From contig CALXTV010000006.1 of the NCBI GenBank assembly GCA_944391505.1, forward strand, positions 1-64,000: a DNA stretch of 64,000 nt. The letters are read 5' to 3'. This DNA is from an uncultured Alphaproteobacteria bacterium (GTDB taxonomy: Bacteria > Pseudomonadota > Alphaproteobacteria > RF32 > CAG-239). The translations under genes were made by a program, and so were the position numbers. The notes below the pieces were generated by a model that saw nothing but the letters and a program-made list of their open reading frames with translations, searched no databases and was not told where the DNA came from. Of the stretch, positions 35,624 through 36,587 are shown in pieces. Each line of letters starts with the position of its first letter. The first letter of the stretch is position 1.

Positions 35624-36035
35624 GACTTTTTTACCATTTGTTAAACTCGGATGATGTACCTTACAGACAGTATTTTACAATTATAGATTATCTTCTGTCT
35701 TAAGCCTTTGTCCGTGTTGTTTTCATCGCTTTATTTGTTCTGTTTCCTCTTTAAACCGATGATTTTAACAACCGCATTATTTTTTGACTTCAAACATTTA
35801 GGTTGTCGGATAAATGTTTGCGAAAAAGCCTGATTCCCATTCACGCTTTTGTCTTGCGCTCCGTGTTCATTGCTCTGAACTGTCCGGAGAAGTCGACACG
35901 GCAGCATCTTGGTCATCTGACTTGTTTCGTAATTGCAAGTGCGAAACTTTTCGGAAGACACTCCCCATAAATTCAGTTCCGGCCGGACTGCTATTTATAA
36001 AAAATTAGTCGGTTGATTATTTTAGTATATATACT
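35624..36035. other. Gene-free stretch with small inverted repeats
   Basis: No convincing coding frame is seen. A perfect 9-bp inverted repeat (AAACATTTA...TAAATGTTT) lies near 35795-35825. A smaller repeat (GTTTCG...CGAAAC) lies near 35924-35946. A minus-strand frame of 76 codons (35731-35961) has biased composition and no ribosome-binding site, so I do not call it. It may contain an unrecognised RNA or a remnant. Confidence 0.5.
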
Positions 36036-36038
36036 GTC

Positions 36039-36086
36039 AAAAAACGCTTCACGTCAAAAAAAAACACGAAGCGTTTTTTTGTTTTT
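36039..36086. terminator. Bidirectional terminator-like hairpin
   Basis: AAAAAACGCTTC and GAAGCGTTTTTT can pair as a 12-bp stem with a 17-base A-rich loop. It insulates the leader RNA region from the stretch upstream. No protein gene directly precedes it. Confidence 0.6.
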
Positions 36087-36125: not shown

Positions 36126-36153
36126 TTGCAAATTAGAAATCAGTCTTTATAAT
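36126..36153 (+). promoter_or_regulatory. Strong sigma-70-like promoter for the leader RNA
   Basis: TTGCAA (36126-36131), a 16-bp spacer and a perfect TATAAT (36148-36153) predict a transcript start near 36160, ahead of the structured RNA. Confidence 0.65.
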
Positions 36154-36159
36154 CGTCCT

Positions 36160-36340
36160 TGCCATCAGCGATGGTTAGGCTGACGGCGGAGATTGAACCC
36201 TCCTTATAGAGAACCGATACCTCCCCCTGGAGGATGACGCGATATAAGCCGCTTTGCGGACGAATAAGTGTACTGTCTCTATACAGGGTTCAACATCCTC
36301 CGCCTTTTCTGATCGAAAGGGCGGTTTTGTTTTAACAAAA
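36160..36340 (+). ncRNA. Candidate riboswitch-like leader or structured small RNA
   Basis: The RNA can form a long irregular stem. Pairs are 36185-36191 GGCGGAG with 36298-36304 CTCCGCC, then TGAACCCT (36194-36201) with AGGGTTCA (36285-36292), then TATAGAGA (36205-36212) with TCTCTATA (36276-36283). It encloses two hairpins: CCTCC-CCCT-GGAGG (36220-36233) and CCGC-TTT-GCGG (36249-36259). The 3' strand of the basal stem shares bases 36300-36304 with the following terminator, so the two folds exclude each other, as in transcription-attenuating riboswitches. No known riboswitch class is recognised. A stand-alone 180-nt small RNA, for example 6S-like, is an alternative. It would control the downstream XRE gene. 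Confidence 0.45.
36300..36335 (+). terminator. Terminator / expression-platform hairpin
   Basis: CCGCCTTTT pairs with AAAGGGCGG across a seven-base loop (nine pairs, one G-U), followed by TTTTGTTTT. It shares its 5' arm with the 3' arm of the upstream long stem. Confidence 0.7.
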
Positions 36341-36359
36341 CATGAAGGAGTTGAACATA

Positions 36360-36587
36360 GTGACAACCAAAAACAACGAAATCATCAAAATCAGAAACGG
36401 TATTTCCCGCCAACTGCACGAGGCTCGTATCAGTGCGCATTTATCTCTGGTGCAGGTCGAAAAGTTGACCGGCATTCCGGCCGATGTTATCGACCGGTTG
36501 GAAGTCGGCATCAAGCCGGTTGACATCGGTCATCTGCACCAGTTGGCCAAGGCTTACGGCAAAACCGTCAAAATCAGTCTGGTCTGA
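36360..36587 (+). CDS. Small XRE-type helix-turn-helix protein
   Basis: This 75-residue protein is almost only a helix-turn-helix domain: LHEARISAHLSLVQVEKLTGIPADVIDRLEVG...LHQLAKAYGKTVKISL. This is the XRE/Cro type. I start at GTG 36360 because AAGGAG sits 10 bases before it. ATG 36342, in frame, would contain that ribosome-binding site within the coding sequence. It lies directly behind the terminator-linked leader RNA and is followed by a bidirectional terminator, so it is monocistronic. It may be an orphan regulator; no partner toxin or phage gene is adjacent. Confidence 0.75.
   Translation: MTTKNNEIIKIRNGISRQLHEARISAHLSLVQVEKLTGIPADVIDRLEVGIKPVDIGHLHQLAKAYGKTVKISLV

Follow-up and report, generated by a model that had tools for sequence, protein, structure and literature searches.

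A multicopy RNA with two mutually exclusive folds and a hypervariable word ahead of small HTH genes: a probable antisense RNA of the c4/sRNA-Xcc1 type with a built-in copy of its target

What kind of RNA is encoded ahead of the small regulator gene at 36360..36587 of the window, the 64,000-nucleotide stretch of contig CALXTV010000006.1 (assembly GCA_944391505.1) from an uncultured alphaproteobacterium of the CAG-239 family? A first-pass annotation made from the letters had proposed a new riboswitch or attenuator of no known class, with a 6S-like stand-alone RNA as the other option. The parts it described are present: we find the promoter, a perfect terminator and a regulator gene with a GTG start, and the minimum-energy fold has the long stem and the two inner hairpins described. 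The element and its surroundings comprise the following features.

36126..36153, + strand: promoter TTGCAA-16-TATAAT, 10/12 match to consensus; nearly all copies in the genus have one, and the copies align from here
36160..36333, + strand: whole RNA element including terminator and U-tract; 152.4 bits and E 2.3e-33 in the window with model R1, whose alignment includes the window copy itself
36161..36187, + strand: 5' hairpin P1 (arms 36161-36168 and 36180-36187, GGUUAG in the loop); both-sided changes in 7/8 pairs
36188..36203, + strand: local hairpin GGAG(U)-loop-(A)CUCC; compensated replacement of GGAGU:ACUCC in copies
36193-36201, + strand: putative target-mimic word P2a, UUGAACCCU, which is the loop of the local hairpin
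36205..36212, + strand: P3a, hypervariable word UAUAGAGA, complement of the loop word; both-sided changes in 7/8 P3 pairs
36220..36233, + strand: P4 hairpin CCUCC/GGAGG, part of the self-paired fold; energy fold and covariation
36229..36301, + strand: 3' domain of c4/Xcc1-like layout, made up of an outer stem, a middle hairpin, a loop hairpin and the strand word; energy fold, RNAalifold and model R2
36229-36236 with 36294-36301, + strand: outer stem of the 3' domain, GGAGGAUG paired with CAUCCUCC
36237..36271, + strand: P5 hairpin with a near-invariant internal loop, GAWAUAA (36241-36247) and GAAUAA (36262-36267)
36273..36286, + strand: loop hairpin CUG-UCUCUAUA-CAG; stem variants in single relatives
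36276-36283, + strand: putative antisense loop word P3b, within the loop hairpin
36285..36293, + strand: putative antisense strand word P2b, AGGGUUCAA, leading into the anti-SD tail; NN positions covary
36300..36333, + strand: intrinsic terminator (36300-36324) and U-tract; both-sided changes in 6/8 pairs
36347..36356, + strand: SD and flank GGAGUUGAAC of the HTH gene, the proposed antisense target; 7-nt complement in the window copy
36360..36587, + strand: small XRE-type HTH gene, 75 aa, GTG start; Pfam HTH_3, 28.1 bits

The RNA at 36160-36324 folds with an energy of -71.3 kcal/mol against -49.2 +/- 4.3 kcal/mol for shuffled sequences (z = -5.1), and none of 200 shuffles folds as well. Across 49 aligned copies 92.6% of the cells are paired, compared with 37-47% for slid partners and 79.9% for shuffles. 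Both-sided changes occur in 34 of the 52 pairs of this alignment; helices 2 and 3, which join the words to their complements, change on both sides in 6/13 and 7/8 pairs, respectively. Because the paired segments do covary, we regard the structure as genuine. The evidence supports two mutually exclusive folds, one in which the RNA pairs with itself along a long helix and one with three helices in the 3' domain. For the window copy, the self-paired fold has an energy of -71.3 and the constrained alternative one of -57.7. Unsupervised RNAalifold analysis of the 3' domain in 39 diverse copies recovered the outer stem, the middle hairpin and the loop hairpin, with strong covariation at the middle hairpin, and all four outer pairs of P5 change on both sides while remaining 100% paired. 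The 3' core of the window copy starts with GGAGG, and model R2, whose alignment contains the window copy, scores it at 65.2 bits (36229-36306).

Compensation is also seen in the shorter helices. The local GGAGU:ACUCC pairing is replaced by GGUGU:ACACC or ACAUC, and all five pairs are retained in 103 of 114 copies, as opposed to none if arms of different types are combined. All 29 copies with GGUG have lost the distal pairing with the 3' CUCC. Covariation also links the 3' arm of P4 to the tail preceding the terminator (run 6.86 with own partners, 5.78 with swapped ones, and a maximum of 5.98 in 50 shuffles). By eye, the CUG/CAG stem flanking the variable word is replaced in single relatives by CUA:UAG, CCGU:ACGG, CAAU:AUUG and CUAU:AUAG.

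Do the two folds control the terminator? The first-pass annotation had rested its riboswitch on an overlap between the basal stem and the terminator, and in the window copy CTCCGCC (36298-36304) does overlap the 5' arm of the terminator. The overlap is not conserved in the family. By inspection, the basal GGAG:CUCC adjoins the terminator in most copies and its GGCGG extension is incompletely paired. In most copies the overlap with the terminator is two bases. The outer stem has CC in common with the terminator base. In a terminating riboswitch or attenuator, a small molecule bound at the near-invariant internal loop of P5 would shift the folds and set the read-through into the HTH gene. That loop, the two exclusive folds ahead of a terminator and the shared CC would suit such a device, as would the distance to the gene: the HTH start lies about 27 nt beyond the U-tract, and expression of the HTH protein therefore needs read-through or an unseen promoter.

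The genes behind the RNA point elsewhere. The window HTH protein is predicted with high confidence to be an XRE-type domain (AlphaFold pLDDT 92), and its nearest PDB folds, matched weakly (E 0.006-0.01), are the restriction control protein C.BclI and HipB-type proteins. At least 30 of 54 distinct downstream proteins match HTH_31 and others match related HTH models, while five, all from a genome with 64 copies, are BspA-type LRR proteins. In this genome (G032) the copies L152, L154, L155, L157 and L160 precede secreted BspA-type LRR proteins rather than HTH genes. No metabolic gene was found behind the RNA, where HTH, LRR_5 and secreted proteins occur instead. Moreover, promoter-RNA-terminator units occur in tandem, four in L143, three in L094 and two each in L144, L145 and L175, with no gene between the units of an array and a gene behind the last unit only, in most cases one for a small XRE-type HTH protein. 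Tandem units without intervening genes, the lack of metabolic genes downstream, a terminator overlap of two bases in most copies, a hypervariability of words unexpected for an aptamer and the layout shared with c4/Xcc1 all argue against a riboswitch, which we consider improbable. Of the layout first described, the two exclusive folds and the terminator ahead of an XRE gene stand; the folds are those of a c4/sRNA-Xcc1-type antisense RNA and its complement.

The element is a repeated one, a fact out of reach of the first-pass annotation. DNA comparison finds it, with its promoter, 14 times in the genome of the window and several times in each congener, and covariance model R1 finds 15 copies in the window's genome, which was examined by stretches and pattern searches. 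With the same model the RNA is present in 128 of 152 genomes and 14 of 16 genera of the alphaproteobacterial family, reaching 64 copies in one genome of about 1.5 Mb (G032); beyond the family it was found in 8 of 238 sampled genomes of the class, some of these hits being weak. Many of the surveyed genomes are MAGs, and the E-values of the home-made models R1 and R2 are rough. Among the named records with the RNA are Azospirillum sp. CAG:239 and many MAGs of gut alphaproteobacteria. Two pattern hits in viral contigs and the pattern hits in Paraburkholderia and Kiritimatiellae were not supported by the RNA model, and a literature search returned nothing on small RNAs of CAG-239. Two copies in the window's own genome are degraded: in L031 the P3 arms are mismatched and the HTH gene is shortened, and L043 is without the 3' part of the RNA.

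An RNA polymerase-binding RNA of the 6S kind would share the long interrupted hairpin of about 175 nt and the possession of its own promoter and terminator. The stand-alone part of that earlier suggestion comes closer than the riboswitch. As 6S, the element finds no Rfam match, occurs in up to 64 copies per genome and has covarying pairs that do not make the 6S central bubble, which leaves this identity hardly credible.

At the site between the cutA and cyclophilin genes the cassette is missing from all six congeners, four of which have a different small gene there; its presence thus varies between species. Next to it in the window, a non-coding stretch of about 450 nt (35640-36085) has 87-92% DNA identity in the congeners, compared with about 70-78% identity of the neighbouring CutA protein. 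It ends in a terminator-like repeat and has no Rfam match, and no occurrence beyond the genus turned up in 49 genomes of the family. We consider it a candidate for a separate ncRNA.

The word shared by the two arms of P3 evolves unlike the rest of the element. In pairs of copies that are 94-97% identical elsewhere, both arms of P3 are about 70% identical, and the identity is about 60% in the lower bins (88-91% and 85-88% identity elsewhere). At orthologous chromosomal sites in two species the word may differ on both arms (for example, L047/L058 and L041/L069), and other sites retain it. Loop words recur more often than expected, with 90 distinct words among 132 where 120 are expected, a count to which shared descent contributes. 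The short address word that each copy has of its own suggests that dozens of mutually insulated RNA switches may exist in one small genome. A more tentative extension, possible rather than probable, is that the RNA and its regulator form a family of cassettes which spread through genomes and change their own address. Every sRNA would then combine the antisense words with a mimic of the matching target, the two arms of the address would be exchanged jointly at a fixed site, and a genome would hold up to dozens of mutually insulated switches.

What would the words be directed at? Taken over the family, complementarity of the loop word to the ribosome-binding site of the following gene is no higher with own than with swapped partners (exact runs of 4.00 and 4.06, respectively), and duplex energies between the two give a mean z of -0.12, again no excess over swapped partners. 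The strand word and its AACUCC tail are complementary to the GGAGUU-type SD of the gene behind, at a level that hardly exceeds a generic anti-SD (5.67 versus 5.38 for swapped partners). Downstream matches exist in some copies, including the window, where GUUCAAC of the strand word and its flank (36288-36294) is the 7-nt complement of GUUGAAC in the HTH ribosome-binding site. An exact-pattern search of the window's own genome for mRNAs with both words of the window copy returned only the element itself. Since the loop word shows no family-wide excess and the strand word is barely above swapped partners, the element's own leader, copies with the same word or other mRNAs are all possible targets.

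The last of these options would make the element a domesticated family of trans-acting sRNAs, with loop words directed at messages from other genes or from invading phages; the HTH gene would then be a mere passenger or a partner. Such a role has been proposed for the C4-like sRNAs of Acinetobacter baumannii (PMC5320573). Loop words that vary and in part recur across backgrounds, with the above caveat on shared ancestry, tandem arrays and the neighbouring ribosome-binding site left unmatched by the loop word are in keeping with this. The same kind of gene mostly remains behind the RNA, however, the exact search for the paired words returned the element alone, and an unsystematic search found no matching phage targets. 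We consider a purely trans-acting role unlikely.

The reading that best accommodates the data, to which we assign a probability of roughly 70%, is an antisense RNA of the c4/sRNA-Xcc1 type that also carries a copy of its target. Transcription would begin near 36160 and mostly end at the terminator, giving a short RNA. Its 3' half (36229-36301) can fold in the c4-like manner, displaying the loop word and the strand word leading into the AACUCC-type tail, and its 5' half bears a complement of each word, the part played by a1/b1 ahead of c4 in phage P1. Because the 5' half is complementary to both words, the full-length RNA would lock them in one long helix. If the 3' half were freed, for example by 5' processing, or if another RNA captured the 5' half, the words could pair with a target. 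By analogy with c4, for which an RNase P site at GGW is reported (PMC5320573), such processing may be due to RNase P. The words would be aimed at the read-through mRNA, at its leader and ribosome-binding site, and so limit the HTH protein, and the hypervariable loop word would insulate the copies from each other.

If this antisense reading is correct, c4-type control is not confined to phage immunity loci but reaches a large gene family of a gut-associated bacterial family, and Rfam sRNA-Xcc1 is linked to c4-like silencing of antirepressor and SymE genes. It would also offer dozens of naturally occurring, near-orthogonal RNA switches that differ in nothing but one word of 6-8 nt, and the collected copies make the two-arm evolution of a paired address directly testable.

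How close is the element to known families? The window copy indeed lacks an Rfam match, both at the gathering cut-off and at E 10, where the only hit is a chance one to Magnesium-II (13.6 bits, E 2.7). The claim that no known class is recognisable holds less well for divergent copies, which match the sRNA-Xcc1 model (RF02221) below its 53-bit cut-off: L145 at 37.5 bits (the best; E 3.6e-5 for 371 nt), L319 from the window's own genome at 33.6, L109 at 29.4 and L166 at 28.1. At permissive thresholds sRNA-Xcc1 is the sole recurring family, always on the 3' domain of divergent copies. The C4 model (RF01695) matched neither the window copy at E 10 nor any of 12 divergent loci at E 1. Reciprocally, model R2 finds true Xcc1 cores weakly (4/29, best E 0.006). 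Common descent with sRNA-Xcc1 is likely, not proven. Variant elements before lipoprotein-like genes (L145:238-432 and L319:1272-1516) lie between the CAG-239 RNA family and sRNA-Xcc1; they have CCGU/ACGG hairpins, and their GAACAUCC tails match GGAUGUU(C) at the SD.

The true sRNA-Xcc1 loci themselves look like c4. Their cores are complementary to an upstream segment (run 8.83 versus 6.08 for swapped partners) and to the downstream ribosome-binding site (6.90 versus 5.28, with at least 7 nt in 19/30 versus 12.6%). In the strong Xcc1 loci found in the phylum, a hairpin loop and a word in the upstream region are complementary to the core. A terminator-like hairpin comes next, and these words are often present again at the ribosome-binding site of the gene behind (for example, L315 and L292). 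Bro-N, KilA-N, P22_AR_N, Rha and SymE are among the genes behind them, and Xanthomonas cassettes have sRNA-Xcc1 upstream of symE (PMC12444791). The loci L289-L318 stand ahead of phage antirepressor-type and SymE genes and have complementarity to the ribosome-binding site. Phage P1 and the Xcc1 loci have in common a terminator-like hairpin (CCGCA..UGCGGUAUUUUUG) that separates a1/b1 from the core, seen at L339:156-215 and upstream of Xcc1 cores and hinting at an attenuator. In the copy of Rfam that we used, Xcc1 stands outside the c4 clan; these data suggest that it belongs there, and the papers covered here do not describe sRNA-Xcc1 as c4-like.

Phage P1, which matches Rfam C4 and c4-a1b1, is annotated with a1, b1, c4, a2 and b2 in this order ahead of icd. 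Like c4 of phages P1 and P7 (RF01695 C4 and RF03163 c4-a1b1, clan CL00128), the CAG-239 element has a three-helix core of outer stem, middle hairpin and loop hairpin followed by a single-stranded strand word, complements of the loop and strand words upstream (a1/b1) and a position ahead of the gene that it would serve; P3a may be a target mimic resembling b1. Unlike c4, it is multicopy, is not matched by the C4 model, holds words and complements inside one terminated RNA, has an intrinsic terminator after the core and is followed by small HTH genes, where P1 has icd-ant. Most downstream genes are not antirepressors, and the pair of complements that c4 has at the next ribosome-binding site (a2/b2) has no counterpart over the family as a whole, matches there being limited to some copies. 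With sRNA-Xcc1 the element shares the helix order, a CCGU/ACGG-type loop hairpin and the GAAUAA motif; true Xcc1 loci differ in having a terminator-like hairpin between complements and core, antirepressor-type or SymE genes, and a loop word that matches the downstream ribosome-binding site. The multicopy C4-like sRNAs of A. baumannii, as far as the text of PMC5320573 covered here describes them, belong to another clade and match the C4 motif, and that text does not describe small HTH genes or built-in complements. Their Group 1, in the same text, resembles the CAG-239 family in its many chromosomal copies per genome, its variable target-binding loop on a constant scaffold and an apparent processing out of longer transcripts.
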